Both the position numbers and the translations under genes were made by a program. This document shows, one piece after another, positions 34,896-61,315 of a DNA stretch of 64,000 nucleotides; within the stretch, counting starts at the first letter, position 1, and each line of letters begins with the position of its first letter. The notes beneath the pieces were generated by a model, which saw only the letters and a list, made by a program, of their open reading frames with translations, ran no database searches and was not told the origin of the DNA. The stretch comes from Blastococcus haudaquaticus. GTDB taxonomy: Bacteria; Actinomycetota; Actinomycetes; Mycobacteriales; Geodermatophilaceae. The stretch lies in NCBI RefSeq assembly GCF_900230285.1, contig NZ_OCNK01000002.1, forward strand, positions 806,001-870,000. Direction: 5' to 3'.

Positions 34896-34910
34896 GTCAG
34901 CGACCCTATA
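34896..34910 (-). promoter_or_regulatory. dut promoter (-10, leaderless)
   Basis: On the minus strand TATAGG (34910-34905) precedes GTG 34895 by nine bases. The T-rich end of a dispersed repeat merges directly into this -10 element. Confidence 0.45.
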
Positions 34911-34969
34911 AGGGACCCCCTCGCCCGCCACCGCTCGCAGGCTCGGCGCGGGCCTCTGGACGGGGCCGG
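34909..34969 (-). repeat. Dispersed hairpin element, copy A (dut)
   Basis: A copy of the ~58-bp family described at 41671-41730. Read on the minus strand it runs from GGCCCCGTCC through the core GGCCCGCGCCGAGCCTGCGAG to GGGGGTCCCTTATAG, toward dut. It lies between the stop of the 300-residue hypothetical gene (34992) and the dut start. Confidence 0.75.
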
Positions 34970-34991
34970 GTGGGCCGTGCACGGGGCACCC

Positions 34992-35894
34992 TCAGGGGCG
35001 GTCGGAGCGACCCGGGCGGAGCTCCGACCGCATCCGCTCGGCGAGCGTCTCCGTCGCCCTGCGGTTGGAGCGTCCGGCGAGTGCCGCGCCGAGCACGAAC
35101 GGTGCTCCGGACGGCATGACGCCCTTCAGCTTCCGCGGGATCTGCGTCCGCAGCGCCCGCATCCCGGCGGCACCGAGCACGGTGCCGAGGCCCGCCGTCG
35201 ACGGGCCGTCGAACGGGCGCTGCTCCGACCAGCTCGCCACGTACGCCGCCGCTCGCGCGCGGGCGTCTCCGCCGGCCGGCCGGCCGTACAGCTCGTGCAG
35301 CTCCCCCACGAGGACGACCTCCACACCCGCGACCAGCAGGGTCTCCCCGCCGAGCGCGATCGGCAGCGTCAGCAGGGACGCCGGTGCGAACCAGCGCGTG
35401 GCGGCGAGGCCGCCGGTGCCCGCGCCGATCCCGGAGGTGGCCCGCGCAGCCCGCGCGACGAGGGCATCGGCGATCTCCTCGTCGGAGAGCCCGGGGTAGG
35501 CCCGCCGCAGCTCCGTACCGGTGCGGATGGGGAGCCTCGGTGCGGCCGCCGCCAGCACCTCCCGGAGGGCGCCGGGCGTGGCGCTGCCCGTAGCCCGGCC
35601 GTCCACCGGTGCGTCCGCCGGGGCGGACGGGCGGCGGGCGTCGCCCAGAGCCGCACCGACCGCCGACGCCAGCGCGCCGACGACGTCGCGCAGGCCCGAC
35701 GCCGCCGGGTGGGGCGTCCGGCCGGCGGTCGTCGGGCCGGCGCCGGTGCCGCCGACGAGTCCGGCGACGGCATCGGCCACCGCACGGGCGGCCCGGCCCA
35801 GCCCGGTCTCCTCGGCGGCAGCGGGCGCAGGAGCGACCGGGCGTGGCGGCGGGACGTCCCGCGCGGCGCCCGTCCGAGGGCCGTTCGACGTCAT
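34992..35894 (-). CDS. Hypothetical protein (300 aa)
   Basis: An Ala-rich protein with a disordered first third (Pro/Ala/Thr), then a folded region with LREVLAAAAPRLPIRTGTELR, LTLPIALGGETLLVAGVEVV (hydrophobic, perhaps membrane-associated) and a C-terminal RIPRKLKG-type basic segment. It occupies the place of the DUF3093 gene of mycobacteria but shows no clear similarity. I could not assign a family. Confidence 0.6.
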   Translation of the reverse strand: MTSNGPRTGAARDVPPPRPVAPAPAAAEETGLGRAARAVADAVAGLVGGTGAGPTTAGRTPHPAASGLRDVVGALASAVGAALGDARRPSAPADAPVDGRATGSATPGALREVLAAAAPRLPIRTGTELRRAYPGLSDEEIADALVARAARATSGIGAGTGGLAATRWFAPASLLTLPIALGGETLLVAGVEVVLVGELHELYGRPAGGDARARAAAYVASWSEQRPFDGPSTAGLGTVLGAAGMRALRTQIPRKLKGVMPSGAPFVLGAALAGRSNRRATETLAERMRSELRPGRSDRP

Positions 35895-35939
35895 CGGATC
35901 CCCTCCGTCGCCCGCCTGGTCAGCGGGAGTGCCGTTGCG

Positions 35940-36239
35940 TTATGCGCAGTCCCGGCAGAACAGCTGGTCGCCGCGCGTCGAGGCGAGGCGGCTGCGGTGC
36001 TGCACGAGGAAGCACCGGGAGCAGGTGAACTCGTCCTCCTGCTTGGGCAGGACGCGGACGGTGAGCTCCTCGCCCGAGAGGTCGGCGCCCGGGAGCTCGA
36101 GGTTCTCGTTGAAGTCGGTCTCGTCGACGTCGACCGAGGCGGACTGCGCCTCGGCCCGTCGTGCCTTGAGCTCCTCGAGCGAGTCCTCACCCAGCTCGTC
36201 GGCCTCGTTGCGGCGCGGGGCGTCGTAGTCGGTGGCCAT
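35940..36239 (-). CDS. DUF4193 family protein with Cys4 zinc-binding tail
   Basis: A 99-residue acidic protein starting MATDYDAPRRNEADE, with a coiled Glu/Ala-rich middle (LEELKARRAEAQSASVDVDE) and a C-terminal zinc-ribbon-like FTCSRCFLVQHRSRL and FCRDCA. It matches Rv2699c by context. Its role is unknown. The longer frame to 36266 adds nine residues without a ribosome-binding site. It is divergent from the phosphotransferase gene. Confidence 0.88.
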   Translation of the reverse strand: MATDYDAPRRNEADELGEDSLEELKARRAEAQSASVDVDETDFNENLELPGADLSGEELTVRVLPKQEDEFTCSRCFLVQHRSRLASTRGDQLFCRDCA

Positions 36240-36581
36240 GGGGTGCCCCTCCCTTGGGGTTCGCACGGGCGTCGTGCCCGCTCATCCGACGGCACGGGGT
36301 GTGCGCCGTCGTCGTGGCCGGTCGCGGTGGCGACCGGTGGTTCGTGACCGGGAGCCGCTGTTGGACTCCCGGGACCGGTGGTGCTCCGGACAGGGCCGGT
36401 ACCGGTTCCCGCGGTGGGGGGCCGTCCCGTCCGTGTCCGACCCGGTCCGCCGTCCGGGGACGGCGATCGGGAAGGTCCGGCGAGCCCCCCAACGCAGCGC
36501 GACCCCGGTTTGTGCCCGCCTCCGGAAACCAGTTCCGTGCGGGCCCCCGGGCCGCGGAGCGCCAGAGGTTACCCTGCCGCC
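36240..36581. other. 342-bp divergent intergenic region
   Basis: No gene was recognised. It holds the promoters of DUF4193 (minus) and the phosphotransferase gene (plus, TACCCT at 36570-36575). A short inverted repeat (CGGGC/GCCCG near 36270) is seen. No RNA gene or riboswitch was recognised. Confidence 0.5.
36570..36581 (+). promoter_or_regulatory. Leaderless -10 element of the phosphotransferase gene
   Basis: TACCCT (36570-36575) is followed by six bases and GTG 36582. There is no ribosome-binding site, so a leaderless mRNA is likely. Confidence 0.5.
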
Positions 36582-37628
36582 GTGTCGACTCCCGTGGGTG
36601 CTGATCCTGCCGTCGTCGGGCCGTACCTGGCCTCCGCCCTGGACGACGAGCGCTGGCGCTCGGTGGGGGTCGAACTCATCGCCGCAGGAATGTCGAACCT
36701 CACCTACGTGGTCACGCCGACCGACGGCAGCGCGGACGACGCGGTGATCCTGCGGCGCCCGCCGACGGGGGCCGTGCTCGCCACCGCGCACGACATGGCG
36801 CGCGAGCACCGCGTCATCTCCGCGCTCGGCCCGACCGCTGTCCCGGTACCTCGCACGCTGCACCTGTGCACCGACGAGTCGGTCCTGGGCGCGCCCTTCT
36901 ACGTGATGGAGCGCGTGGTCGGTATTCACGTCGTCCGGGAGTTCCCCGCGGGATACGCCGACGAACCGTCGCAGCGGCGCGCCGTCGGCGAGAACCTCGT
37001 CGACGTGCTGGCCGACCTGCACTCGGTCGACTACGCCGCCGTGGGGCTGGGCGAGTTCGGCCGGCCGGAGGGTTTCGCGGCCCGCCAGGTCCGCCGCTGG
37101 ACCAAGCAGTGGGACGCCACCCGTGACCGGGACCGGCCGGGCCTGGACGCCCTGGCGGCCCGGCTCGCCGAGACGGTGCCGACGACGCAGCGGTCCAGCG
37201 TCGTGCACGGCGACTACCGGCTGGACAACTGCCTCCTCGACCCGACCGAGCCCGGCCGCATCAAGGCCGTGCTCGACTGGGAGATGTCGACGCTCGGCGA
37301 CCCGCTCACCGACATCGGGATGATGTTCGTCTACTGGCCGCAGGCCGGCGAGGAGCGCGCCTCGACGATGAGCCCGGTGACCACCCTGCCCGGTTTCCCC
37401 ACCCGCGCCGAGGTCGCCGAGCGCTACGCGCAGCGGACCGGGGCCGACCTCTCCGACCTCAACTGGTACGTCGGCTTCGCCTTCTTCAAGTTCGCCGCGA
37501 TCATCGCCGGCATCGTCGCCCGGTCGGCGGCCGGCGCGATGGCGGGCAAGGACACCTCCGGCTACGCGGAACGCATCGACCCGTGCGTGGAGCTGGGACG
37601 CGCCGCGCTGGACGACGGTGCGATCTAG
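36582..37628 (+). CDS. Phosphotransferase family protein (APH/ACAD10-like)
   Basis: A 348-residue kinase-like protein. N-terminal GMSNLTYVV is the nucleotide loop, REHRVISAL the helix C region, VHGDYRLDNCLLD the catalytic loop and VLDWEMSTLGDPLTDIG the metal-binding segment. It resembles the APH-type domain of ACAD10, linked to acyl-CoA or hydroxy-fatty acid metabolism, rather than antibiotic resistance. The substrate is unknown. GTG 36582 is likely leaderless. The gene is an insertion between the DUF4193 and cei homologues. Confidence 0.88.
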   Translation: MSTPVGADPAVVGPYLASALDDERWRSVGVELIAAGMSNLTYVVTPTDGSADDAVILRRPPTGAVLATAHDMAREHRVISALGPTAVPVPRTLHLCTDESVLGAPFYVMERVVGIHVVREFPAGYADEPSQRRAVGENLVDVLADLHSVDYAAVGLGEFGRPEGFAARQVRRWTKQWDATRDRDRPGLDALAARLAETVPTTQRSSVVHGDYRLDNCLLDPTEPGRIKAVLDWEMSTLGDPLTDIGMMFVYWPQAGEERASTMSPVTTLPGFPTRAEVAERYAQRTGADLSDLNWYVGFAFFKFAAIIAGIVARSAAGAMAGKDTSGYAERIDPCVELGRAALDDGAI

Positions 37629-37703
37629 GGCCCCTTCCCAGCCCTAAACTCCAGGCGACCGATTCTTGGCCCGGCACGCGCCGGGTCCCGCCGAGGAGTG
37701 CCC

Positions 37704-38243
37704 GTGACGCTGCGTACCGAACGACCGCCGGTGCGCCCACGTAGCGGCAGGCGCCCCCTCCCGCCGCTGATCTTCCTGCTGGTGCTGGCCCTCGCCGCGC
37801 TGGGCGTGTGGTGGAACGTGCTGCGCCAGGAGAAACAGGAGGTCGAGGAAGAGGCGGCGGCCTGCTCCTCGGCGTCCGAGGCGGCCCCGCCGACGGGGCT
37901 GGACCCGGCGGCCATCAACCTGCGGGTCCTGAACGCCACCGACACCTCCGGCCTGGCCACCACCGTGGCCGAGGCACTCCGCGCCCGGGGCTTCGTCGTC
38001 GACGAGGTGGCCAACGACTCCAGCGGTCGCGAGGTCACCGGCGTGGGCGAGCTCCGGCACGGCGCCCGGGGCAACGAGGCGGCCGAGTACGTGCGCCTCT
38101 ACGTCCCCCAGTCCGGCGACTACCTCGACACCCGCGCCACCGCCCAGGTCGACGTGGTCATCGGGCCGGACTTCACCACCCTCGCCTCCGAGGAGGAGGT
38201 GGCGGCGGCGCTCGCCCCGCCGACCGCCGCCGCCGACTGCTGA
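37704..38243 (+). CDS. cei: LytR C-terminal-like domain protein (Cei homologue)
   Basis: A 179-residue membrane-anchored protein. One helix (PLIFLLVLALAALGVWW, about 21-37) leads to an extracytoplasmic LytR_C domain with INLRVLNATDTSGLATTVAEAL. It matches Rv2700 (Cei), needed for envelope integrity in mycobacteria. GTG 37704 has GAGGAG 5 nt upstream; GTG 37698 overlaps that site. A -10-like TAAACT lies at 37645-37650. It is convergent with suhB. Confidence 0.87.
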   Translation: MTLRTERPPVRPRSGRRPLPPLIFLLVLALAALGVWWNVLRQEKQEVEEEAAACSSASEAAPPTGLDPAAINLRVLNATDTSGLATTVAEALRARGFVVDEVANDSSGREVTGVGELRHGARGNEAAEYVRLYVPQSGDYLDTRATAQVDVVIGPDFTTLASEEEVAAALAPPTAAADC

Positions 38244-38256
38244 CCGGCCCGGCCCG

Positions 38257-39066
38257 CTAGGAGAGCTCCTCCAGGAGCTCCAGCAGCGGACCGGCGATGG
38301 ACGGGGCCGCGGCCACCGCCATCGGCTCCGCGAAGGGACGGCCGCCCAGGCCGGTGACGACGAGCCCGGCCTCGGTCGCCACCAGCGCGCCGGCCGCGTG
38401 GTCCCAGGGCTTGAGGTCCAGCTCGTAGTAGGCGTCGACGCGACCGGCGGCCGCGGCGCAGAGGTCGAGCGCCGCGCTGCCGTGGCGGCGGATGTCGCGC
38501 ACCCTCGGCAGGAGCCGGGCGACAACCGCGCCCTGCGCCCGGCGCTGCTCGACCCGGTACCCGAAGCCGGTGGCCACCAGCGTCTGCTCGAGGGAGTCCG
38601 GCCGGCTGCCGGTGAGCCGCACCGGATGCGCCAGCGCCGGTGAGGACACCTCGGCCCCGCCACCGGCGGTCGCCGTGAAGAGCTCGCCGGTCGCCACGTT
38701 CAGCACGACCCCGGCACGCACCTCGCCGTCCACCTCGGCGGCGATGGAGATCGCGTAGGCGGGCAGGTCGTAGAGGAAGTTCACCGTTCCGTCGATCGGG
38801 TCGACGATCCAGCGGACCCCGCTGGTGCCGGTCCGCTCGGCGCCCTCCTCCCCCAGCAGTCCGTCCCCCGGGCGGGCCCCGAGCAGCCGGGCGGTGATCA
38901 GCTCCTCGCTCGCGCGGTCCACCGCGGTGACGACGTCGACGGGGCTGGACTTCACGTCGACGGTGACGGCCGTCGAACGGCCCTCCGCGACCAGCGCGGC
39001 CGCCTCCTGGGCGACGTCGACGGCCAGGTCCAGCAGGTGGGCGGGGTCTGCGGGAGGAACGCTCAC
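38257..39066 (-). CDS. suhB: Inositol monophosphatase family protein
   Basis: A 269-residue Mg-dependent phosphatase. It has KSSPVDVVTAVDRASEELI, LLGEEGAER (Glu), WIVDPIDGTVNFLYDLP (metal-binding Asp, Asp) and LKPWDHAAGALVATEAG (Asp). It dephosphorylates inositol 1-phosphate or related sugar phosphates, needed for phosphatidylinositol and mycothiol synthesis. It matches Rv2701c. GTG 39066 follows GCAGGA; GTG 39084 is an alternative start. Confidence 0.92.
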   Translation of the reverse strand: MSVPPADPAHLLDLAVDVAQEAAALVAEGRSTAVTVDVKSSPVDVVTAVDRASEELITARLLGARPGDGLLGEEGAERTGTSGVRWIVDPIDGTVNFLYDLPAYAISIAAEVDGEVRAGVVLNVATGELFTATAGGGAEVSSPALAHPVRLTGSRPDSLEQTLVATGFGYRVEQRRAQGAVVARLLPRVRDIRRHGSAALDLCAAAAGRVDAYYELDLKPWDHAAGALVATEAGLVVTGLGGRPFAEPMAVAAAPSIAGPLLELLEELS

Positions 39067-39110
39067 GGGTGGATCCTGCCGCACCCCGGACCGGTGACGT
39101 ACTGGAACGG

Positions 39111-39168
39111 CAGCCCTTCAGGGGCCCGCGGCGAGCGTGCGAGGCGTGGGGGGGAAGGCTGGTCCTCT
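39111..39168 (+). repeat. Dispersed hairpin element, copy B (suhB/ppgK)
   Basis: Plus-strand orientation toward ppgK. The outer stem CAGCCCTTC (39111-39119) pairs with GAAGGCTG (39154-39161), with one bulged C. The core is GGGCCCGCGGCGAGCGTGCGAG. The T-rich end GGTCCTCTGAC runs into the ppgK -10 element. Confidence 0.75.
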
Positions 39169-39171
39169 GAC

Positions 39172-39183
39172 TACCCTGTCGGC
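39172..39183 (+). promoter_or_regulatory. Leaderless -10 element of ppgK
   Basis: TACCCT (39172-39177), six bases, then GTG 39184. There is no ribosome-binding site. It directly follows dispersed repeat copy B. Confidence 0.5.
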
Positions 39184-39927
39184 GTGCAGGGCTTCGGAGT
39201 GGACATCGGCGGCAGCGGCATCAAGGGATGCCTGGTCGACCTCGAGCAGGGAAAGCTGCTCGGCGAACGGCTGCGGATCGAGACGCCCCAGCCCTCGCTG
39301 CCCGACCCGGTGTACGCCGCCGTGGCCCGGATCGTGGACCACTTCGGCTGGACCGGGCGGATGGGAGTCACCTTTCCCGGCGTCATGAAGAACGGCGTGG
39401 CCCACACCGCGGCCAACGTCGACAAGAGCTGGATCGGCACCGACGTCGACGCCGGTCTCGACGAGCTCATCCCGGGCACCGTCGAGACGCTGAACGACGC
39501 CGACGCCGCGGGGATCGCCGAGATGCGGTACGGCGCCGGCCGGGACCGCAAGGGCGTCGTCCTGATGCTCACGTTCGGCACCGGCATCGGCAGCGCCCTC
39601 TTCGTCGACGGTCACCTGGTGCCCAACACCGAGTTCGGCCACATCCAGGTGGACGGCGAGGACGGCGAGCGCCGCGCCTCGGCCGCCGCGCGGGAGCGCG
39701 AGGAGCTCGGCTACCCCGAGTGGGCCCAGCGCGTGGACCGCTACCTCGACGTGCTGGAGGCCGGGCTCTGGCCGGACCTGATCATCGTCGGCGGCGGCGT
39801 CAGCAAGAAGGCGCACAAGTGGGTGCCGCTGCTGTCCACGCGGACGCCGGTGGTGCCCGCCCAGCTGCAGAACGACGCCGGCATCGTCGGCGCCGCCCTC
39901 GCCGCCCACGAGCGCACCGATCGCTGA
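39184..39927 (+). CDS. ppgK: Polyphosphate glucokinase
   Basis: A 247-residue ROK-family enzyme that phosphorylates glucose with polyphosphate (or ATP). It begins GFGVDIGGSGIKGCLVDL (phosphate-binding loop), has TFPGVMKNGVAHTAANVD, the LNDADAAGIAEMRYGAG segment (catalytic Asp) and LTFGTGIGSALFVDG. It matches Rv2702 by position and size. GTG 39184 is leaderless. Confidence 0.93.
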   Translation: MQGFGVDIGGSGIKGCLVDLEQGKLLGERLRIETPQPSLPDPVYAAVARIVDHFGWTGRMGVTFPGVMKNGVAHTAANVDKSWIGTDVDAGLDELIPGTVETLNDADAAGIAEMRYGAGRDRKGVVLMLTFGTGIGSALFVDGHLVPNTEFGHIQVDGEDGERRASAAAREREELGYPEWAQRVDRYLDVLEAGLWPDLIIVGGGVSKKAHKWVPLLSTRTPVVPAQLQNDAGIVGAALAAHERTDR

Positions 39928-40291
39928 GAACGGCCGCGCGTGCGTGCCCGAACGGGTGATGCCCGAGTGGCGGGAGGGGCCCGCCCCTTCAGTCGGCTCG
40001 CCTCGCGGTCGATGCACTCCGTGGACCGGTGACCGACCGGGAACCCTCGGAACAGCTCGTCGGAGCGAGGCTGCGGGATCCAGGACGGTGGAGAACGCCG
40101 GACACGCCGTTACAATGAGAGAGCCCCACCCCGTCGCCCTCCAGCCGGGAGGGATCCCCTGCCCGTCCGTCGGCCAAACGCCGCGCCGGTCTGCCGGGAC
40201 CTCTACCGCTGCACATGTGCGTCGACCGGAGCCGCTGCCCAGGGACCAGAAGGCCCCCCGGGGAACGAACCCAGCACGGGAAGGAACCTGA
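39928..40291 (+). other. 364-bp ppgK-sigA intergenic region / sigA leader
   Basis: No coding or RNA gene was recognised. A -10-like TACAAT is at 40111-40116, giving a leader of about 170 nt for sigA. A short GC-rich inverted repeat (GGGCCCGCCCC area near 39980) may end ppgK transcription. Confidence 0.5.
40111..40116 (+). promoter_or_regulatory. Candidate sigA -10 element
   Basis: TACAAT is the best -10 match in the gap before sigA. The -35 region (TGGAGA near 40089) is poor. Confidence 0.4.
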
Positions 40292-41670
<1,379 letters not shown>

Positions 41671-41671
<1 letters not shown>

Positions 41672-41730
41672 AAAAGGACCCCGTCCCTCTCACCCCTCGC
41701 ACGCTCGGGGCGAGCCTCCGGACGGGGCCG
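41671..41730 (-). repeat. Dispersed hairpin element, copy C (sigA 3' end)
   Basis: The type copy of the family. On the minus strand it reads GGCCCCGTCC, then core GGCTCGCCCCGAGCGTGCGAG, then GGACGGGGTCCTTTTT ending at the sigA stop. The outer stem CCCCGTCC (41679-41686) pairs perfectly with GGACGGGG (41720-41727). An inner GCTCG/CGAGC stem is also present. The stem plus T5 looks like an intrinsic terminator pointing into the sigA 3' end. Confidence 0.8.
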
Positions 41731-41732
41731 CA

Positions 41733-41768
41733 CGAGGGCCCGGATCGCGACAGCGGTCCGGGCCCTCG
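41733..41768 (+). terminator. sigA terminator hairpin
   Basis: CGAGGGCCCGGA (41733-41744) pairs perfectly with 41757-41768 over a 12-nt loop, 60 bp past the sigA stop. There is no T-tract. Confidence 0.65.
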
Positions 41769-42199
41769 CCGTCGTCCCGGTCGCCCGCTCCGCCGGCCGG
41801 ATGAGCAGTCGTGGTCGCCCGCCTCGGCGGGTCGGCGCGTGTCGGCGACCTCGACTGCCCACTCGTGCGGGTCACAGTTCGGTCGCGGACGTCACCCGGA
41901 GGGGCGGGCGCCGGTGTATGCCGACACGTGTCGGGTAGACGGCGTAGCGTGGGACACGTCAGAACAGCAGCGGACCCACGGTCGGTCGGCACCCAGCCGT
42001 CCGGCAGATCGACCAGCACCACAGTCCACCCCAGTGACGTCCCCTGCTGAACCCGCTCCGCCAGGCCCGGCGTGTTACGGACTCATCTCTTTCGGCGAGT
42101 CCGCGACGATCCGGGTCGGAACGGGAATCCGAGGGGCCATCCTGGCGCTGTGCAGGAGGCCGATCCGCAGCCGCGGGTCCGTGCGGTAGAGAGCGAGTG
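41769..42199 (+). other. 431-bp gap after sigA without recognised gene
   Basis: I see no convincing gene or RNA. It holds a perfect 14-bp palindrome (41921-41934) followed by a -10-like TAGACG, and the leader of the DUF7455 gene. Short open frames on both strands lack family features. Confidence 0.45.
41921..41934. promoter_or_regulatory. 14-bp perfect palindrome
   Basis: CCGACACGTGTCGG lies about 265 bp upstream of the DUF7455 gene, with TAGACG (41936-41941) just after it. It could be an operator; the protein is unknown. Confidence 0.35.
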
Positions 42200-42424
42200 A
42201 TGAGCCAGATGACCCAGACGCTGACGTCGACCCCGCCCACCGATGACCTCGTCGTCCCGTTCCACTGCGACCGCTGTGGAGCCCTGGCAAAGGTTCGTGT
42301 CGTTCTCGCGAGCGGTAGCGACCTGGTTTTCTGCGGGCACCACGCCCGTGAGTACGAGAGCAAGCTGCGTGACATTGCCGTCGACATCATCGACACGGAT
42401 GGCGAGCAGCGCGTTACTGCATGA
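42200..42424 (+). CDS. DUF7455-type small zinc-ribbon protein (Rv2708c-like)
   Basis: A 74-residue protein. PFHCDRCGALAKVRVVL and LVFCGHHAREYESKLRDIA form a CxxC-CGHH zinc-binding pattern conserved in Actinobacteria near sigA/sigB. The function is unknown. ATG 42200 is chosen (MSQMTQTLTS). Confidence 0.82.
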   Translation: MSQMTQTLTSTPPTDDLVVPFHCDRCGALAKVRVVLASGSDLVFCGHHAREYESKLRDIAVDIIDTDGEQRVTA

Positions 42425-42569
42425 GTAAGGGGATATCGTCGCGCCCGCGATGACCGCCTCATACGACGACGACGCCGCCGCGTCCTCCACCCCGCCTCGC
42501 GCGGAGGGAGGGCCGGCGGCTTCGTCGTTCCCGGGGACCACCGGTCGACGGACACCGGAGGAATCCCCC

Positions 42570-44852
42570 ATGCCCCAGCACCCCGCGACACCGGACGACA
42601 CGGTGCACGACGACGCGCTGCACGACGACGCGCTGCACGACGACACGGTGCACGACGTGCACGACGTGCACGACGCGACCGTGCGCATGCGCCCCGACGG
42701 AGCGGGCGGACGGCCCACGCCCGAGCCGTCGCCCGAGCCGCCCCTCGAGCCGTCGCCCGAGCCGTCGCCCGAGCCGTTGCATCAGCAGACCCGGTCGGTA
42801 CCGGTCGAGGACCACGAGGACACCCGCCCGGTCACCCGGGACTGGCTGCTCGGCGCCCCCGACACGGGCTCGCAGCCGGTCGCGGGGCCCGCCCAGGAGG
42901 AGGACCGCAGCACCCAGGCGCTCGACTACTCCGACCCCGGGCGCCCCGACGAGGACCGCAGCACCCAGGCACTCGACTGGTCCGGGGCCGGGCGTCCCGA
43001 CGACGAGACCTCCCTGCCGACCACACCGGTGGAGACGCTCCTCCGCGAGGACGGCGCGTCCGGCCCCCAGACCCCCAGCGGCCCTCCCCCGGGCGACGAG
43101 CCGCCGGCTGACGGCCCGCGCGGCCCCTGGTGGCGCCGTCGGGCGGTGTTGGTCCCGGCTGGCGCGGTCGTCGTCCTCGCCGCCGCCTACGGCGCGGACC
43201 TGCTCATCGCCTCCGGCGACATCCCGCGGTCGACCACGGTGGCCGGCGTGGACATCGGGGGCCTCTCCCCCGCCGCTGCCTCCGAGGTCCTCGAGGAGGA
43301 GCTCGCCCCCCGGGTGAACGCCGAGCACCAGGTGCGCGCCGGCGACGTGACTGCGCCGTTCTCGCCGCTGACGGCCGGGATCACGCTCGACGTGGGTGCG
43401 ACCATCGACTCCGCCGACGACCAGCCGCTCAACCCGTGGACGCGGGTGACGACGCTGTTCAGCGACCGCGACGTCGAGCCGACCTTCACCGGCGAGGAGA
43501 CCGCGCTGGGCGCGCAGATCGACGCGCTGGCCGAGCAGGTCGACCGGGCGCCCGTCGACGCGTCCATCGTCATCGAGGACGCGACCCCTGCGGTGACGGA
43601 GCCGGCCGACGGCCGCGCGCTGGACCGCGACGGCACCGCCGAGGCCGTGTTCGCCGCCCTCCGCTCCGGCGCCGACCCCAGCACCCCGATCGACGTGCCC
43701 GTCGACGTGACGCCTGTGAACGTCGACCGGGCGGAGGCACAGCGCGTCCTGGACGAGACCGTGACGCCCGCCCTCTCGGCGCCGGTCACCGTGTCCACCC
43801 AGGAGAGCAGCGACACCGCCGAGGTGTCGGTGGAGGCCATCGCCGCGTCGCTGACCTTCACCCCGCAGGAGGACGGCGTCCTCGCGGTGGCCGTGGACCC
43901 CGTCGCGCTGCAGACGGCCCTGGGCGACGAGCTCGCGGTCTTCGGCAGCGGAGCCGAGGACGCCCGCTTCGACGTCTCCGGCGGTGCGGTGACCATCGTC
44001 CCGTCCGTCGACGGCACGGGCGTCGCCCCGACGACGCTGGCCGAGCAGCTCCTGCCCGTCCTCACCCAGCCGGAGCCGCGGACGGTCACCGCCCAGCTCG
44101 GACCGGTGCCCGCCGACTTCACCACCGAGGAGGCCCAGGCGCTGGGCATCAAGGAGGAGATCGGCAGCTTCACCACCAACATCGGCAACGCGGCCAGTGG
44201 CACCAACATCCGGGTGGTCGCCGAGGAGGTCGACGGCGCGGTCGTCATGCCGGGCGAGACGTTCAGCCTCAACGGCTTCACCGGGCCCCGCGGGCTGGCG
44301 CAGGGCTACGTCGAGGCCGGCGTCATCAACAACGGCACGTTCACGACCGCGGTGGGCGGCGGGATCAGCCAGTTCGCCACCACGATGTTCAACGCCGTCT
44401 TCTTCTCCGGCATGGAGGACGTGTTCCACAAGCCGCACAGCTACTACATCAGCCGGTATCCGGCCGGCCGCGAGGCGACGGTCTACTACGACTCGATCGA
44501 CCTGAAGTGGCGCAACGACAGCGACACCGGCGTCTACATCGACACCGCGTGGACGCCCGGCACGATCACCGTCACGTTCTACGGGACCAAGCGGTACGAG
44601 ATCGAGTCGGTCAGCAGCGACCGGTTCAACCAGCGCAGCCCGGTCGTCCAGGAGAAGCCGGACGACGGCACCTGCAAGGCCCAGGGCGGGTCCACGGGCT
44701 TCGACATCACCGTGACCCGGATCTTCCGTGACCTCTCCTCGGGCGCGGAGGTGAAGCGGGAGAACTTCCAGACCCGCTACGCCGCCGAGCCGGTGATCCG
44801 GTGCATCGCGGCGCCGGAACCCGAGGCGCCCCCGGCGACGCCGGGCGGCTGA
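42570..44852 (+). CDS. VanW-family peptidoglycan-binding-like membrane protein
   Basis: A 760-residue protein. Residues 1-185 are a disordered cytoplasmic region with repeats. One membrane helix follows (about 190-212, VLVPAGAVVVLAAAYGADLL). YoaR-type domains cover about 240-520, and a VanW domain lies near 533-660 (MPGETFSLNGFTGPRG, GGGISQFATTMFNAVF, YDSIDLKWRNDS). It is probably anchored in the membrane with the wall-binding part outside; related proteins occur with vancomycin resistance but the role is structural or unknown. ATG 42570 has GGAGGAA 6 nt upstream; an ATG at 42450 in the same frame lacks one. Confidence 0.85.
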   Translation: MPQHPATPDDTVHDDALHDDALHDDTVHDVHDVHDATVRMRPDGAGGRPTPEPSPEPPLEPSPEPSPEPLHQQTRSVPVEDHEDTRPVTRDWLLGAPDTGSQPVAGPAQEEDRSTQALDYSDPGRPDEDRSTQALDWSGAGRPDDETSLPTTPVETLLREDGASGPQTPSGPPPGDEPPADGPRGPWWRRRAVLVPAGAVVVLAAAYGADLLIASGDIPRSTTVAGVDIGGLSPAAASEVLEEELAPRVNAEHQVRAGDVTAPFSPLTAGITLDVGATIDSADDQPLNPWTRVTTLFSDRDVEPTFTGEETALGAQIDALAEQVDRAPVDASIVIEDATPAVTEPADGRALDRDGTAEAVFAALRSGADPSTPIDVPVDVTPVNVDRAEAQRVLDETVTPALSAPVTVSTQESSDTAEVSVEAIAASLTFTPQEDGVLAVAVDPVALQTALGDELAVFGSGAEDARFDVSGGAVTIVPSVDGTGVAPTTLAEQLLPVLTQPEPRTVTAQLGPVPADFTTEEAQALGIKEEIGSFTTNIGNAASGTNIRVVAEEVDGAVVMPGETFSLNGFTGPRGLAQGYVEAGVINNGTFTTAVGGGISQFATTMFNAVFFSGMEDVFHKPHSYYISRYPAGREATVYYDSIDLKWRNDSDTGVYIDTAWTPGTITVTFYGTKRYEIESVSSDRFNQRSPVVQEKPDDGTCKAQGGSTGFDITVTRIFRDLSSGAEVKRENFQTRYAAEPVIRCIAAPEPEAPPATPGG
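42603..42675 (+). repeat. In-frame tandem repeats in the VanW-like N-terminus
   Basis: 15-bp units GACGACGCGCTGCAC and shorter GTGCACGAC units encode HDDAL and VHD repeats. PSPEP repeats (about 42720-42780) and a duplicated DRSTQAL block (about 42903-43000) follow. All lie in the disordered cytoplasmic region. Confidence 0.75.
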
Positions 44853-46042: not shown

Positions 46043-46064
46043 CATTGCGATCCTCCGGACCGCC

Positions 46065-46122
46065 GGCCCCGCTGCAGGGGCCCGCCGCGAGCTTGCGAGT
46101 GGTGGGGGCAGTGGGGTCCTTA
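46065..46122 (+). repeat. Dispersed hairpin element, copy D (yihY/DUF3039)
   Basis: Plus-strand orientation. CCCCGCTGC (46067-46075) pairs with GCAGTGGGG (46108-46116) with one G-T pair. The core is GGGCCCGCCGCGAGCTTGCGAG. The GTCCTTA end overlaps the stop codon of the convergent DUF3039 gene. It probably terminates the yihY transcript. Confidence 0.78.
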
Positions 46123-52434: not shown

Positions 52435-52449
52435 TCTGCAGAAGGGGTG

Positions 52450-53548: not shown

Positions 53549-53563
53549 CTTGACCAGGTCAAG
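53549..53563. promoter_or_regulatory. Fur-type palindromic operator upstream of fur
   Basis: CTTGACC-A-GGTCAAG is a perfect 7-1-7 palindrome 22 bp before the fur start. It overlaps a -35-like TTGACC. It is well placed for FurA autorepression of the fur-katG operon. Confidence 0.65.
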
Positions 53564-53585
53564 GTTGGCGCGTGAGGATGCCCTC

Positions 53586-54008
53586 GTGCCCGACTCGGCA
53601 GAACTGGAACGCGATCTGCGCGCCGTGGGGCTGCGCGTCACGCGTCCGCGTCTGGCGGTGCTGGACGCCGTCCACGCGCACCCCCACCTCGACACCGAGG
53701 CGCTCATCGGCGCGGCCCGCACGCGCCTGGACGCCATCTCCCACCAGGCCGTCTACGACGTCCTGCGGGTGCTCACCGACACCGGCCTCGTGCGGCGCAT
53801 CCAGCCGCAGGGGTCGGTGGCCCGCTACGAGGCGCGCGTCGGCGACAACCACCACCACCTGGTCTGCCGCGACTGCGGCGCCATCGTCGACGTCGACTGC
53901 TCCGTCGGCGCCGCTCCCTGCCTCACCCCGTCCGACGACGCCGGCTTCGTGGTCGACGAGGCCGAGGTCGTCTACTGGGGCCGCTGCCCCGCCTGCGCCA
54001 CCGCCTGA
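53586..54008 (+). CDS. furA: Fur-family metalloregulator (FurA-like)
   Basis: A 140-residue regulator. The winged-helix part has [20 protein letters not shown] and [19 protein letters not shown]; the metal and dimer part has [17 protein letters not shown] and a second CPAC pair for structural zinc. As in mycobacteria and streptomycetes it precedes katG and probably represses it in response to iron and peroxide. GTG 53586. Confidence 0.9.
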
Positions 54009-54059
54009 CCCCCGCCTGACCCATCCGCCCTCCGACCCCGACGCTGAGAGAGGCCCCCC

Positions 54060-56279
54060 GTGAAGGACGAGACCAACAAGGTCCAGACCGACAGCACCAG
54101 CGAGAGCGAGAACCCGGCGATCCCGTCGCCGGAGGCGCACACCGACCAGCGGCCGCGCACGAACCGGGACTGGTGGCCCAACCAGGTCGAGCTGTCGGTG
54201 CTGAACAAGCCCTCCAGGGACTCCGACCCGCTGGGCGCGGACTTCGACTACAAGGCCGCGTTCGCGACGCTGGACGTCGAAGCGGTCAAGCGCGACCTCG
54301 TCCAGGTCATGCGGACCTCGCAGGACTGGTGGCCCGCCGACTGGGGCCACTACGGCCCCCTGTTCATCCGCATGTCGTGGCACGCGGCCGGCACGTACCG
54401 CATCGCCGACGGGCGCGGGGGCGGTGGCGAGGGCGGGCAGCGCTTCGCGCCGCTCAACAGCTGGCCGGACAACGCCAACCTCGACAAGGCCCGCCGCCTG
54501 CTCCTGCCGATCAAGCAGAAGTACGGCCGCAAGCTCTCCTGGGCCGACCTGCTGGTGCTCGCCGGCAACGTGGCGCACGACGACATGGGCCTGCCGACCT
54601 TCGGCTTCGCCTTCGGCCGCGAGGACAACTGGCAGCCGGGCGAGGTCTTCTGGGGCCCGGAGGACACCTGGCTCGGCGACGAGCGCTACGCCGGCGACGA
54701 CCCGCTGGACCTCGACGAGGGCCCGCTGGCCAACGTCACCATGGGGCTGATCTACGTCAACCCCGAGGGCCCCAAGGGCAAGCCCGACCCGCTGGGCTCC
54801 GGGCACGACATCAAGCAGACCTTCCGCCGCATGGGCATGACCGACGAGGAGACCGTCGCCCTCATCGCCGGCGGCCACACCTTCGGCAAGACGCACGGCG
54901 CGGGCAACCCCGAGCTGGTCGGCCCGGAGCCCGAGGGCTGCCCGGTGCACGGCAACGGCCTCGGCTGGATCAGCCAGCACGGCACCGGCAAGGGCGCGGA
55001 CACCATCACCAGCGGCCTCGAGGGCGCCTGGACCCCCACGCCGACGACCTGGGACAACACCTACTGGGAGATGCTGTTCGGCTTCGAGTGGGAGCTCGTC
55101 GAGAGCCCGGCGGGCGCCAAGCAGTGGCAGCCGAAGAACCCCGAGGCGCAGGAGCTCGTCCCCGACGCGCACATCGAGGGCAAGAAGAACCCGCCGATGA
55201 TGTCGACGGCCGACATGGCCCTCGCGGTCGACCCGGAGCTCCGCGCCTACGCCGAGCGATTCCGGGACGACCCGGAGTACTTCGCCGACCAGTACGCCCG
55301 TGCCTGGTTCAAGCTGCTGCACCGCGACATGGGCCCGAAGGTCCGCTACCTGGGCCCGGACGTACCGGCAGAGGACCTCATCTGGCAGGACCCGGTCCCG
55401 CCGGTCGACCACGAGCTCGTGGGCGAGGCGGAGATCGCCGACCTCAAGCAGCGCCTGCTCTCCTCCGGGCTGACCGTCCCGCAGCTGGTGCACACCGCCT
55501 GGTCGGCGGCCGCGTCCTACCGCGGCACGGACAAGCGCGGTGGGGCCAACGGCGCCCGGATCCGGCTCGAGCCGCAGATCAACTGGGCGGCCAACCAGGG
55601 CGTCCAGGACGTGCTGCCGGTGCTCGAGCGGGTCAAGGGCGAGTTCGAGCAGCAGACCGGCAAGCGGGTCTCGCTCGCCGACCTGATCGTGCTCGGCGGG
55701 AGCGCGGCCGTCGAGAAGGCCGCGGCCGACGCCGGTGTGCAGGTGACGGTGCCCTTCTCCCCGGGGCGGACCGACGCCACGCAGGAGCAGACGGACGTCG
55801 ACAACTTCCGGTGGTTGGAGACGCGGGCCGACGGCTTCCGCAACTGGATCGCGCCCGGGAGCAAGCTGGCGCCGGAGACGCTGCTGGTCGACAAGGCGTA
55901 CATGCTCGAGCTGACCGCGAAGGAGATGACGCTGCTCGTCGGCGGCCTGCGGGTGCTCGGCGCCAACACGGGGGGCACGCCGCACGGCGTGTTCACCGAC
56001 CGGCCGGGAGTCCTCTCGCAGGACTTCTTCCGCAACCTGCTCGACCTGGGCATCTCGTGGCGCACGTCGACCCACACCGACGGCGTGTACGAGGGGCTCG
56101 ACGCCGACGGCACCGTCGTGCGGACGGCGACCGCGGCCGACCTGGTGTTCAACTCGAACTCGATCCTGCGCGGGATCGTCGAGGTCTACTCGGCCGACGA
56201 CGCCCAGGAGCTGTTCGTGCGGGACTTCGTCGCCGCCTGGGTCAAGGTGATGGAGCTCGACCGCTACGACCTGCGGTAG
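54060..56279 (+). CDS. katG: Catalase-peroxidase
   Basis: A 739-residue haem enzyme that destroys H2O2. The distal site [10 protein letters not shown] (Trp107, His108) and proximal [11 protein letters not shown] (His273) are present. Trp107, Tyr232 (LIYVNPEG) and Met258 (FRRMGM) are placed to form the Met-Tyr-Trp adduct required for catalase activity; M. tuberculosis numbering is W107, Y229, M255. A second, degenerate peroxidase domain forms the C-terminal half. GTG 54060 follows GAGAGAGG. It is in an operon with fur. Confidence 0.97.
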
Positions 56280-56291
56280 TCGCTGGGCCCT

Positions 56292-56330
56292 CAGACGCCC
56301 CGGCCCGCCTCGTGCGGGCCGGGGCGTCTG
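56292..56330. terminator. katG terminator hairpin
   Basis: A perfect 17-bp stem (56292-56308 with 56314-56330) and a 5-nt loop, 12 bp after the katG stop and 22 bp before the convergent STAS stop. It probably works in both directions. Confidence 0.75.
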
Positions 56331-56352
56331 CGCGTCCCCGCCCGGCGGGCCA

Positions 56353-56703
56353 TCAGCGCGGCGGTTCCTCGGCCTCCGGCCGCAGGAACACGGTGTCTAT
56401 CCCCGCGAGTTGCAGAGCCCGGTCGATCGGCCGCGAGGACCTGCGCAGCACCGGTCTGCGCCCCGCGGCCGCGGACGCCTCCGCGCAGAGCAGCATGAGC
56501 GCCAACCCGGAGGAGCTGATGAAGGTCACGCCACCGGCGTCGATCGCATCGACCACGACCCGCTCCCGCCCCCGGGCGCTGGTGAACCGCGTCGCCACCG
56601 CGGTGTCGACGTCCCCGCGCAGGCACAGCACCCGCCGGTCGGCGGCCTCGTCCTCGACCGTGATGGCGCCTGCCGGAGCTCGCTGCTCCCGATCCACGTC
56701 CAT
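56353..56703 (-). CDS. STAS-domain protein (anti-sigma factor antagonist-like)
   Basis: A 116-residue STAS-fold protein. [18 protein letters not shown] is the first strand and helix, and [21 protein letters not shown] includes the conserved D-x(n)-SSGL phosphorylation region. It may be a partner-switching anti-anti-sigma factor, but no RsbW-type kinase is nearby. ATG 56703 has AGAGGG upstream. Confidence 0.85.
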
Positions 56704-56848
56704 GAGCCCTCTTCCCCGCCGACTGGGGCCGGCGCGGGCGGAGCCGCCGCCGATGGCTCGACACGCGGGTTCCTCCACCGAAACGGTACGCCGCCCGCGG
56801 CTGCGCCTGCACCCCGCGATCCCGGCCTCACGCAGGGAGAATGGTCCG

Positions 56849-57280
56849 GTGCGTGCGGTGGTGAGCAGGGTGAGTACAGCGGCTGTAACGGTCCACGGCG
56901 CGGTCGTGGGCGAGATCGGACCGGGACTGCTGTCACTGGTCGGAGTGGGTCACGCCGACGACGTGGCGGCCGCGCGGGCGCTGGCCCGCAAGGTCCACGA
57001 GCTGCGGATCTTCCCGGGGCCGGACGGTGAGGTGTCCGTGGCCGACCTGGGCCTTCCCGTCCTGGTGATCAGCCAGTTCACCCTCTACGCAGACACCCGC
57101 AAGGGCCGTCGCCCATCGTGGCAGGACGCGGCTCCTGGCGAGGTGGCCGAGCCGCTGGTCGACGAGGTCGTCGCCGAGCTGCGCCGGCGCGGGTGCACCG
57201 TGGCGACCGGCGTCTTCGGTGCGCGGATGCAGGTGTCGTCGGTCAACGAGGGCCCGATGACCCTGCTGCTGGAGGTCTGA
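56849..57280 (+). CDS. dtd: D-aminoacyl-tRNA deacylase
   Basis: A 143-residue enzyme that removes D-amino acids from t[18 protein letters not shown] is the start, [20 protein letters not shown] holds the SQFTL motif, and [16 protein letters not shown] ends with the Gly/Asn-Pro-like active-site segment (NEGP). GTG 56849 has GGGAGAA upstream. Confidence 0.92.
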
Positions 57281-57353
57281 GGACGACCGGTCCCGGGTAT
57301 GCCGCAGTGACCGAAGACACTCCCTGTCGGTTTGCTGTGAACGACCGGATCGC

Positions 57354-57380
57354 GGAACACGGAAGCCGGTCGGGACCGTT
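57354..57380 (+). promoter_or_regulatory. SigR/SigH-like promoter before sigB
   Basis: GGAAC (57354-57358) and GTT (57378-57380) are spaced by 19 bp, matching the oxidative-stress ECF consensus GGAAT-N18/19-GTT. It lies about 145 bp before sigB. Confidence 0.5.
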
Positions 57381-57526
57381 GTGCAGGGCGTACCACATCG
57401 GACAGAAGAAGCAGGGACCGGTCCGGACGAGCCGGAAACCGCCCGCATTCACGCCTAGGTGCCCCACGGCCGCCACCGACGACGCCGCGGATGCATCCGA
57501 ACCGAAGGCAAGGACGAAGACCCATC

Positions 57527-58513
57527 GTGACGCTGCTGCAGTCTTCCCCCAACGACACCCTCGGGGTGCGCTCACCGCGCCGGGAGCCCGACACCAGCGG
57601 ACTGGTGTCGACCGACCTCGTGCGCGTCTACCTCAACACCATCGGCAAGACCGCGCTGCTGACCGCCGAGCAGGAGGTCGAGCTCGCCAAGCGGATCGAG
57701 GCCGGCCTCTACGCCGACCGCCTGCTTGCCGAGAAGCCCGACCTCACCCCCGCGAAGAAGCGGGACTACAAGATCCTCGCCGTCGACGGCAAGGCCGCCA
57801 AGGCGCACCTGCTGGAGGCCAACCTCCGGCTCGTCGTGTCCGTGGCCAAGCGCTACACCGGCCACGGCATGACGTTCCTGGACCTCATCCAGGAGGGGAA
57901 CGTCGGCCTGATCCGCGCCGTCGAGAAGTTCGACTACACCAAGGGCTTCAAGTTCTCGACCTACGCCACCTGGTGGATCCGTCAGGCGATCACCCGGGCG
58001 ATGGCCGACTCCGGTCGCACGATCAGGCTGCCCGTCCACCTGGCCGAGCAGGTCAACAAGGTGGTCCGCACCCGGCGCCGCATGCACCAGGAGCTCGAGC
58101 GCGAGCCCACCGCCGAGGAGCTGGGCCTCGAGCTCGACCTGCCCGAGGCGCGGATCACCGAACTGCTCGAGTACAGCCGCGACCTGGTCAGCCTCGACCA
58201 GACCGTCGGCGCCGACGAGGAGTCCCGGCTCGGTGACTTCATCGAGGACGCCGACGCCGCGGTGGCCGAGGACGCCGTCGCCTTCCAGATGATGAAGGGC
58301 GACGTCCGCAACGTCCTCGAGACGCTCGAGGACCGGGAGCGCGACGTCGTCATGATGCGCTTCGGTCTGGACGGCGGTCAGCCCAGGACGCTCGAGCAGA
58401 TCGGCAAGCAGTTCGGTCTGTCCCGGGAGCGGGTCCGGCAGATCGAGCGCGAGACGATGGCCAAGCTGCGCGACCCGCAGCGCGCCGACGCCCTGCGCGA
58501 CTATCTCGCCTAG
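57527..58513 (+). CDS. sigB: Group 2 RNA polymerase sigma factor (SigB-like)
   Basis: A 328-residue sigma-70 close to SigA but without its long N-terminal region. Regions 2 ([35 protein letters not shown]), 3 ([20 protein letters not shown]) and 4 ([20 protein letters not shown]) are all present. It is a stress or stationary-phase factor and matches Rv2710. GTG 57527 has an AAGGACGAAG upstream; the frame to 57491 is longer. Confidence 0.93.
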
Positions 58514-58523
58514 GCACGACGAC

Positions 58524-58559
58524 AGAAGGGCCGGTCACCTGCGGGTGACCGGCCCTTCT
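58524..58559. terminator. sigB terminator hairpin
   Basis: AGAAGGGCCGGTCACC (58524-58539) pairs perfectly with 58544-58559 over a 4-nt loop, giving a 16-bp stem 10 bp after the sigB stop. It is shared with the convergent acyltransferase gene. Confidence 0.8.
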
Positions 58560-58564
58560 CGCGT

Positions 58565-61315
58565 TCAGACGGGGCTGCGCATCCGGCGGGGGCCCGGGTC
58601 GACCCGCGCCGTGGGCGGCCCCACGTGGGCGCTGCCGCCGGCGACCACCAGCGACCGACCACCGTGCCAGGGGTTGGGCGGACCGACGATCACCGGCTCC
58701 AGCGTCAGCCGCAGCACCTCGGGGAGGTCGTCGGCCAGGCGTGCGACCCGCAGCAGCAGGTTCTCCAGCGCCTCCAGGTCCACCGGCTCGGAGCCGCGGT
58801 AGCCGTCCAGCAGCGGGAACGCCCGTGGCGCCCGGACGAGCTCGGCGGCGTCCAGGTCGGTCAGCGGGAGCGTGCGGTAGGCGCGGTCGCCCAGCAGGTC
58901 GGTCGCCACTCCCCCGAGCCCGAAGCTGACCAGGGCGCCGAACGAGGGGTCGTCGACGATCTCGACGACCGTGGCGACGCCGGGCGCCGCCATCTCCTGG
59001 ACGATCACCGGGTCACCGGACGGGATGGCGGCGAACGCGGTGCGCACGGCGTCGTCGTCGGCCAGGTCCAGCCGGACGCCGCCCAGGTCGGACCGGTGCC
59101 GCAGCCACGGTGCGGTCGACTTCAGCACCACCGGGTGGCCGATGTCCCGCGCCGCGGCGACGGCCTGCTCGGCGTCGGTGACGGTGCGCGTGCCGAGGAG
59201 CGGCACGCCGTAGGCGGCGAGCAGGGTCATCAGCTCGTCGTCGGTCAGCTCGCGGCCGGACGGGGCACCGGCGAGAACCGAGCGCACCAGGTCCTTCGCC
59301 ACGGACTCCTGGACGTCGGGCAGCTCGGGCAGGTCGCCCACCGGCCGACGCCGCCAGCGGGCGTACTCGGCGACCTTGGCCAGCGCGATGACGGCCCGCT
59401 CGGGCGTGGAGTACGAGGGCACCGACCCGCGCCCCGGCATGCCGTCCTCGTCGAGCACGGCCAGCTCGTCCGGGATGCCCTCGGTGGACAGGAAGCTCGC
59501 CACGACCGGCTTCGACGACGCGCGGGCGACGTCCCGCAGCGCGGGCCCGTACTCCTGCGAGCCGGCCATCAGGGGCGGCAGGAAGACGGCGACGACCGCA
59601 TCCACCGTCTCGTCGTCGACGGCCGCCTGCAGCGCGTCCCGGAACGCCTCCGGGCTGCCGGTGACCCCGATGTCGACGGGCGCCTCGTGCGAGAGCTCCA
59701 GCCCCTCCTCGAGGACGGCGTCGGCGACCAGCACCCCGATCGCCGTGGAGTTGCCGACGATGGCCACCCGCGGCCCCTCGGGCAGCGGCTGGTGGGCCAG
59801 CAGGGTGCCGACGTCGAACATCTGCGCCACGGTCTCCACCCGGATGACCCCGGCCGAGGCGAAGAGGGCCGCCACCGACTGCTCGGGGACCGCGACCGAC
59901 GTGCCGGCCAGGCCCGGCGTGACGTTCACGTGCCGCCCGCTCTTGACCGCGACGACCGGCTTGGTGCGGCCGACGCTGCGGGCGAGGCGGGCGAACTTGC
60001 GGGGGTTTCCGAAGCTCTCCAGGTGCAGCAGCACGACCTCGGTGCCGGGGTCGGTGGCCCAGTACTGCAGCAGGTCGTTGCCGCTGACGTCGGCGCGGTT
60101 GCCCGCCGAGACGAAGGTGGACAGACCCAGCTGGCGGCTGCGGGCGCGCTCGAGCAGCGCGACGCCCAGCGCTCCGGACTGGGCGAAGAAGCCCACCCGC
60201 CCCCGGCCCGGGACCATCGGCGCGAGGCTGGCGTTGAGCCGCACCTCGGGGTCGGTGTTCACCATGCCCAGGCAGTTGGGACCCACCACGCGCATGCCGG
60301 ACGCCCGGGCGGCCGCGACCAGCCGGCGTTCGGCGTCCCGCCCCTCGGGTCCGGTCTCCCCGAACCCCCCGGAGACGACGACGAGGCCGCGCACCCGCTT
60401 GCGGCGGCAGGCCTCCACGACGCCGGCCACCTCGTCCGCCGGCACCGCGAGGACCGCCAGGTCGAGGTCCTCGGGGATGGACTCGATGTCGGCGTAGGCC
60501 GGGACGCCGCGCACGTGCCGGGCGCCGGGGTTGACCGGGTACACGGGTCCGGCGAAGCCGTAGTCGAGCAGGTGCCGCAGCAGCGCGTTGCCGATCTTGC
60601 CGTCGTCGTTGCTGGCCCCCACGACCGCGACGGAGGACGGCTTCAGGAGCCGGGCGATGGAGCGCGACTCGCTGCGCTGCTCCCGTTCGTAGGCGACGGC
60701 GAGCGCGTCCTCGGTCTGCTCGATGGGGAAGGTGAGGTGGACGACGCCGTCCTCGTAGGAGCGCTCGGACTTGTAGCCGGCGTCCTGGAAGACCCGCACC
60801 ATCCGGCTGTTCTGGGCGAGCACCTCGGCCACGAAGTTCTTGATGCCCCGCTCCCGGGCCGCGGCGGCGAGGTGCTCGAGCAGGACGGAGCCCAGGCCCC
60901 GGCCCTGGTGGGCGTCCTCGACGAGGAAGGCGACCTCGGCGTCGTCGGTGCCCGGATACCGGTCGTAGCGGCCAACGGCGATGATCTGCTCGCCGAGGAG
61001 GACCACGAAGGCCACCCGGTCGACGTGGTCGACGTGGGTGAACCGGTGCAGGTCCTTCTCCGACAGCCGCTTCATGGGCCCGAAGAAGCGGTAGTAGCGG
61101 GTCTGGTCGCTGCTGCGCTCCATCAGCCCGTTGATGCCGTCGTCGTCCTCCGGGCAGATCGGGCGCAGGTGCACCGTCCCGCCGTCGGCGGCCACGATGT
61201 CGGCCTCCCAGTGCGGCGGTGGGGTGGGCCGCTCGTCGCCGGCCGTCGGCCCCTCGTCAGGGGCCCGCTGCGAGCCCGCGAGCGGTTGGGGGGAGAGGGG
61301 TCCTTTATCAATCAC
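58565..61315 (-). CDS. GNAT acetyltransferase fused to ADP-forming acyl-CoA synthetase-like domain (Pat type)
   Basis: A 916-residue fusion. The N-terminal GNAT domain (about 45-200) has [14 protein letters not shown] and [17 protein letters not shown]. CoA-binding and ligase-like domains follow ([30 protein letters not shown]), and an ATP-grasp-like domain lies near 690-890. Related Pat proteins acylate lysines of acyl-CoA synthetases; the adjacent AcuC would reverse this. GTG 61315 overlaps the AcuC stop by 8 bp and no other start precedes the conserved [12 protein letters not shown]. Residues 4-24 are encoded by dispersed repeat copy E. Confidence 0.87.
61251..61308 (+). repeat. Dispersed hairpin element, copy E (inside the Pat N-terminus)
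   Basis: Plus-strand orientation. CCCCTC (61251-61256) pairs with GAGGGG (61295-61300), extended by flanking GG/TCC. The core is GGGCCCGCTGCGAGCCCGCGAG. The GTCCTTTATCA end abuts the AcuC stop. In the opposite direction it is translated as [20 protein letters not shown]. Confidence 0.78.

Follow-up and report, generated by a model that had tools for sequence, protein, structure and literature searches.

A dispersed family of covarying hairpins with one precise end, mostly at stop codons, in Geodermatophilaceae

The window analyzed here, a 64,000-nucleotide (nt) stretch of the Blastococcus haudaquaticus genome (contig NZ_OCNK01000002.1, positions 806,001 to 870,000), carries five copies of a short hairpin element in both orientations. 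We found that these copies belong to a large dispersed family whose outer stem covaries far beyond chance. The T-rich end of the element is precise and adjoins a stop codon on the opposite strand, whereas the other end is loose, and within the genomes scanned the family was seen only in Geodermatophilaceae. We regard the hairpin as probably a non-autonomous mobile element that uses a single precise end to enter CTGA-like sites, mostly stop codons.

The exact core of the element, GCNNCGAGCNTGCGAG, occurs 71 times in the 4.51-Mb source genome, split 37 to 34 between the two strands, compared with 0 occurrences of the reversed pattern. A covariance model built from 72 aligned copies, namely the 71 exact-core copies and the window copy at 61251, returned at least 150 matches in the same genome, the weakest with E = 4.9e-6 among the best 150 of 9218 candidates that were scored. 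The original prediction had described a family from the five window copies alone, and the genome indeed contains many more. By eye, the consensus read toward the T-rich end is GGCCCC-nn-TGC AGGGnCCC GCNN C GAGCNTGCGA G NNGTGGGGGG CA-nn-GGGG TCCTTNN, and across the 72 aligned copies the elements begin with GGCC and end with GGTCCTTNN. The architecture comprises an outer stem that is free in sequence but paired, an inner stem, and the near-invariant loop GAGCNTGCGA; two stem types, NNTGC/GCANN and GTCC/GGAC, are common by eye. The element is about 55-60 nt long (GGCCCC...GGGGTCCTTNN), and in eight nested copies that were measured the two-stem unit spans 55-58 nt from GG/CG to CCTT. A long form is about 18 nt longer owing to a 5' extension, GGTGACGTGCTGGAACGG, which is present with up to 3 mismatches in 10/72 copies; another 8 have part of it (TGGARCGG).

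Folding of the 72-copy alignment with RNAalifold recovered the outer and inner helices, with two-sided changes at 10 of 14 pairs. Paired cells make up 89.8% of the alignment versus 73.9% after shuffling, and two-sided changes number 150 versus 59, with neither value reached in any of 500 shuffles; the paired fraction falls to 40-52% when the register is slid. The number of pairs showing two-sided change (10) was equalled in 55/500 shuffles. An alignment-free arm-swap test gave the same answer: outer arms paired with their own partners average -19.79 kcal/mol versus -14.58 (standard deviation 0.30) for swapped partners, and none of 20,000 permutations did as well. In that set, which holds 67 distinct left arms, a copy's own right arm was the best or tied for the best partner of its left arm in 23/72 cases. 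The covariation of the outer stem that the original prediction had noticed therefore exceeds the chance level. Single copies tell less, as four of the five window copies are not more stable than shuffled sequences (z from +1.4 to -1.1), the sigA copy reaching z -3.1, and the structural evidence thus lies in covariation and not in folding energy.

Placement relative to genes, which throughout were called with a codon-usage caller made for this analysis and not taken from standard annotation, is strongly asymmetric. In 59/72 copies of the source genome, the T-rich end is followed on the right by an opposite-strand gene, the stop codon of which is flush with the element in 53; the left-hand genes of these 53 stop-flush copies are oriented nearly evenly (28 versus 25). 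The median gap is -1 nt at the right end and 43.5 nt at the left end. Flush copies within -2 to +5 nt number 40/72 against 14.0 expected, and the maximum in 20,000 simulations using the same intervals and both orientations was 25. We extended the measurement to 162 copies from source, congener and named loci (the pattern required the core and an intact right end, and loci L175-L209 were excluded), in which the distance from CCTT to the start of the opposite-strand stop is exactly 2 nt in 75 and between -2 and +5 nt in 118. Some copies away from stops adjoin TANNNT boxes by eye, for example TATAGGGT at dut and TACCCT at ppgK.

The family is widespread yet uneven among its host genomes. Exact cores were found in 100 of 112 family genomes, at 1 to 230 per genome, and were absent from 12, with a reversed control giving 0 to 9 per genome; this genome set was taken as Geodermatophilaceae from the 84-92% matches of source-genome loci to named loci. 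Of 150 genomes drawn from across the order, 132 are not of this family, and none of these holds more than 3 exact cores, which is the control level. A 42-nt pattern searched in named genomes matched at least 115 stretches, and all 80 loci listed are from Geodermatophilus, Blastococcus, Modestobacter or Geodermatophilaceae-only records. We also ran the covariance model on 16 genomes, scoring the best 150 candidates per genome, so that the counts are lower bounds. It gave at least 152 matches in G057 and 2 to 21 in five family genomes, and exact cores proved to undercount the family, as G017, G075 and G082, each without an exact core, gave 2, 4 and 11 model matches, respectively. Within the same best 150 candidates, G028, a 100% complete congener with one exact core, gave no match; nor did G001, four genomes from genera g5-g7 that are 81-98% complete, or four non-family genomes. 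Viral contigs, plasmids and phages gave no match to one pattern and one 66-nt query.

Orthologous sites are patchily filled. Among ten congeners compared around sigA and its paralogue, the dut site holds a copy or remnant in 3/8 relatives with both flanks (near-intact in G030, nested in G027, degenerate in G038), and the ppgK site is occupied in 4/10 (intact in G025 and G031, nested in G038 and G027). The sigA stop is occupied in 0/9 relatives, the DUF3039 stop in 1/9 (G038), and the AcuC stop in 3/9 (intact in G031, nested in G032, degenerate in G029). Orthologous copies differ in stem sequence, and the occupied sites are scattered over the congener tree, two inner nodes of which are poorly supported (0.10 and 0.41); the scatter implies repeated gains, losses or both, and the tree cannot say which. 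At ppgK, the distance from CCGCA to TCAC is 22-39 nt in five empty sites, and that from CCGCA to the element is 0-12 nt in four filled ones (counted by eye), a shorter left spacing that suggests loss of target on the left. Nineteen orthologous pairs with named loci comprised 12 with a copy in the same orientation, one with a copy in the opposite orientation only, and 6 with none; these sharing rates are biased upward because the named loci were chosen for the exact 42-nt pattern.

Copies also enter one another. We read nine nested events, picked by pattern and by eye (the inverted L090, L112, L123 and a degenerate one in L075 were excluded), and in seven of them the host resumes at CGAG or CGAA, placing the junction at CGAGCNTG^CGAG in the host loop; the other two, both from G027, have the host resuming at a different place. 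Where the left host arm stops varies between events, and each event lacks some host nucleotides. Locus L154 contains a copy within a copy within a copy. Three loci (L112, L070 and L152) carry serial right-cut copies at one stop codon, of which the last is complete, and the units in L112 differ in stem. In nested and serial copies alike, the newcomer appears to take the place of DNA to its left. Near-identical tandem arrays in L142 (66 bp), L165 (84 bp) and L149 (52 bp) may reflect simple slippage. The stretch L142 ends inside its 66-bp array of the element (4466-4641), apparently at a contig end, and such arrays may break assemblies. Direct repeats of at least 4 nt flank 3 of 63 usable copies versus a shuffled mean of 2.5, so no target duplication was detected; 9/72 copies were dropped from this test because their ends were not located. 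No two of the 71 exact cores in the source genome lie closer than 499 nt, and a few close inverted core pairs occur in other genomes (G002 and G003).

Under the mobile-hairpin reading, a copy would enter its target by the precise end, with a junction on the strand of the followed gene reading ...CTGA^NRAAGGACCCC, and would consequently fall immediately behind a stop codon, in most cases TGA, within the loop tip of an earlier copy at CTCG^, or elsewhere, for instance at -10-like boxes. The other end would be joined loosely and without duplicating the target, of which some 10-40 nt would be lost, as judged by eye, and repeated use of one target would produce the Russian-doll and serial right-truncated copies. 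The carrier may be a single-strand intermediate, either the hairpin as DNA or an RNA that is copied where the target is nicked, and pairing would be kept either since the hairpin is the mobile form or through arm-to-arm template switching that repairs it. The placement suggests that insertion itself favors these sites and that selection is not the sole cause. Because the inserted hairpin begins a few nucleotides from the stop codon, it is likely to affect mRNA 3' ends, though as a secondary consequence.

As to how such a hairpin might spread, we tentatively propose, as a possibility well short of an even chance, that it does so transposase-free, with CTGA/CTCG sites (stop codons or its own loop tips) offering a free 3' end onto which a single-stranded DNA or RNA form is copied. 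Copying of this kind would fit the precise end, the loose end with its target loss, the absence of duplication, the reuse of targets, the entry into loops and the kept pairing; a transient reverse transcriptase or the host's own replication and repair would drive it. A resident reverse transcriptase was considered as the mover and set aside, as RVT_1 was found in 18/40 genomes in a manner unrelated to copy number and in neither G057 (230 cores) nor G088 (160 cores), though a lost or borrowed enzyme may have acted. The IS91-type domain Y2_Tnp was found in 0/40 genomes, with control genomes giving no match either.

Several observations weigh against a mobile hairpin, or at least limit how far it can be pressed. 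In the 162-copy set, 36 copies lack a stop on the opposite strand anywhere between -8 and 60 nt, and the preference for TGA is inseparable from background, since 533 of 615 background stops are TGA. Eight of the 72 source-genome sites are occupied also in named-species loci, and many copies may therefore be old and kept by selection. The genomes represent one per species, and between different loci or genomes identity reaches about 93% at most (60 best pairs), with no insertion between near-identical strains seen; the left deletion is accordingly a probable one, read from diverged species. Host-arm pairing across the nine nested events was not significant (1502/20,000 permutations were as good), the events being few and G/C-biased. 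Finally, no enzyme that moves the hairpin was identified among the Y1, Y2 and reverse transcriptase families searched.

The strongest rival, which we nevertheless think unlikely, holds that the copies are domesticated 3' untranslated region (UTR) hairpins or bidirectional terminators, selected after stops for termination or mRNA protection, so that pairing reflects function. The strong compensatory change in the stem, the flush location after stops and the sites common with named-species loci all agree with it, as do a convergent share of 25/53 among flush copies versus 0.36 of gene ends, a weak excess, and a left stop that is also flush for 12/36 same-strand left genes. Selection for termination nonetheless fits poorly, because it predicts a tail on the gene strand and does not predict nesting. 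The T-tract and the flush gene are on opposite strands in 53/72 copies, and 28 of the 53 flush copies sit between tandem genes, neither of which is read in the direction of the T-tract, so that a terminator of this kind would be of no use to either; at the remaining 25 the left gene is on the same strand and the T-tract could still serve it. In addition, a consensus scan called one of four copies in the scanned stretch terminator-like, the complete congener G028 has no model match among its best 150 candidates, and nesting with serial truncation suggests movement. The further role as a terminator that had been proposed from the window is thus not supported by the sequences at hand, and stays unproven.

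Less probable again is a classical miniature inverted-repeat transposable element (MITE), that is, a cut-and-paste derivative of an insertion sequence (IS) on which a DDE transposase acts in trans. Copies are dispersed, short, palindromic and patchy, as this would have it, yet cut-and-paste predicts two precise ends and usually a duplication, whereas left junctions are variable and direct repeats at the ends stay at the shuffled level. A search of about 1.2 Mb of loci, starting from 19 right halves that stand alone, gave no convincing longer element with the same ends, DDE families not being searched.

We consider a repetitive extragenic palindromic (REP) element driven by a REP-associated tyrosine transposase (RAYT) very improbable: its size, its hairpin, its location between genes, its copy number and a preference for gene ends like that described for REPs (PMC3733652, in the part available) speak for it, but Y1_Tnp (PF01797) was found in 0/28 genomes, the richest included, against 5/14 control genomes (a divergent Y1 enzyme could escape the Pfam model), the ends of the 72 aligned copies bear no GTAG or CGTC tag by eye, the wide spacing of the cores is unlike REP pairs, and 55-58 nt with two stems contrasts with the 20-40-nt simple palindrome of REPs.

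The five window copies (Table 1) were read directly from the sequence at the coordinates and orientations first proposed. The core said to be common to all five is exact in four, and the copy at 61251 differs by one change (GCTGCGAGCCCGCGAG). The proposed neighbors were borne out by protein identification (dUTPase, polyphosphate glucokinase, Sigma70, DUF3039 and a histone-deacetylase-domain protein), with start positions uncertain for dut and for the gene left of copy 5 in the codon-usage gene calls. The T-ends at 34909 and 39168 adjoin TANNNT -10-like boxes, named by eye, just upstream of dut and ppgK, and may have altered promoter spacing there. Rfam gave 0 matches above the gathering score in the whole window.

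Table 1. Copies of the hairpin element in the window
Feature	Positions	Strand	Context
Copy 1, GTCC-stem type	34909..34969	-	T-end faces dut and adjoins TATAGGGT, a -10-like box (box named by eye)
5' extension (GGTGACGTACTGGAACGG), long form of copy 2	39093..39110	+	
Copy 2	39111..39168	+	T-end adjoins TACCCT, upstream of the polyphosphate glucokinase gene (ppgK)
Copy 3, GTCC-stem type	41671..41730	-	T-end adjoins the sigA TGA stop codon
Copy 4, NNTGC-stem type	46065..46122	+	CCTTA end shares bases with the TAA stop codon of the DUF3039 gene
Copy 5	61251..61308	+	T-end adjoins the stop codon of the histone-deacetylase-domain (AcuC) gene

Other repeats lie nearby. A degenerate partial copy suspected at 33541-33590 was rejected, as it shares just the 12-mer CGAGCTTGCGAG with the hairpin and belongs to a separate repeat of about 75 bp. 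This second family (window 33531-33600; L078, L088, L075, L077 and L082) carries the 12-mer in a GTGAC/GTCAC stem and forms tandem arrays of about 75-77 bp in the congener G026 and single copies elsewhere; the loop common to the two families suggests that one factor binds both. Downstream of sigA and DUF3039, several of the congener loci L075-L084 have a third palindromic repeat (GTCCTCCGGACCGC ... CTGCGCGGACCCCTCCGGGGCCCACTCGG), and in G038 the focal hairpin sits inside it. The window also encodes a VanW-domain protein (42570-44852; below curated cut-offs), in which tandem repeats span 42594-42776 and 42897-42998.

In Geodermatophilaceae the hairpin family adds an extensive layer of structure to the 3' ends of genes, varying from 0 to 230 exact cores among species. 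Orphan palindromic repeats that lack a transposase, such as CGTC REPs, are a standing puzzle, and their spread can now be tested from readable footprints, which in this family are one exact end, one loose end, nested series and filled versus empty sites. If transposase-free spread is true, the family would be a bacterial counterpart of proliferation by template switching or in the manner of short interspersed nuclear elements (SINEs).

No description of these Geodermatophilaceae repeats was found in the literature, of which subscription papers fall mostly outside coverage; broader searches returned REP, MITE and further work on other groups of bacteria. The available part of PMC3733652 mentions neither Actinobacteria nor Geodermatophilus, Modestobacter or Blastococcus, and cites untagged REP-like sequences in M. 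tuberculosis; PMC2267715, in the portion available, counts stem-loop families in Mycobacterium and Corynebacterium; and PMC9686282, likewise in part, gives 0 to 7 'questionable' clustered regularly interspaced short palindromic repeats (CRISPRs) per Geodermatophilaceae genome. According to the accessible text of PMC3733652, REPs of the GTAG and CGTC super-families prefer gene ends; like the hairpin, they are short, palindromic, intergenic and close to gene ends, sometimes supplying the stop codon, some REP families sit inside other palindromes, and CGTC REPs have no dedicated transposase. The hairpin differs in its length of about 55-60 nt, its two stems around a fixed 10-nt loop, its stem free in sequence, the lack of tag and RAYT, and the one precise end flush with stop codons. 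YPAL/RU-2, ERIC, RUP and Correia/NEMIS elements are also non-autonomous and hairpin-forming, and YPAL likewise has occupied as well as empty sites and inserts close to dyad symmetry (PMC2229807, part available); these families make target-site duplications (3-26 bp for YPAL, same source), whereas none was detected here, and no IS relative of the hairpin was found in the loci examined. Rho-independent terminators, including those formed by DNA uptake sequences, resemble it in having a GC-rich hairpin with a short T-rich tail near stops (PMC2267715, same portion), but the hairpin's tail is antisense to the followed gene, its loop is fixed and shared, it nests in itself, and a complete congener is without a model match among its best 150 candidates. 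The mobile REP/MITE-like character given to it by the original prediction finds support as to mobility, in view of the patchy orthologous sites, self-nesting and copy-number range, and none as to class, as neither Y1 nor tag, target duplication nor convincing parent IS was found in the genomes and loci examined; the hairpin works like REP/MITE repeats but lacks the features tested for in REPs.

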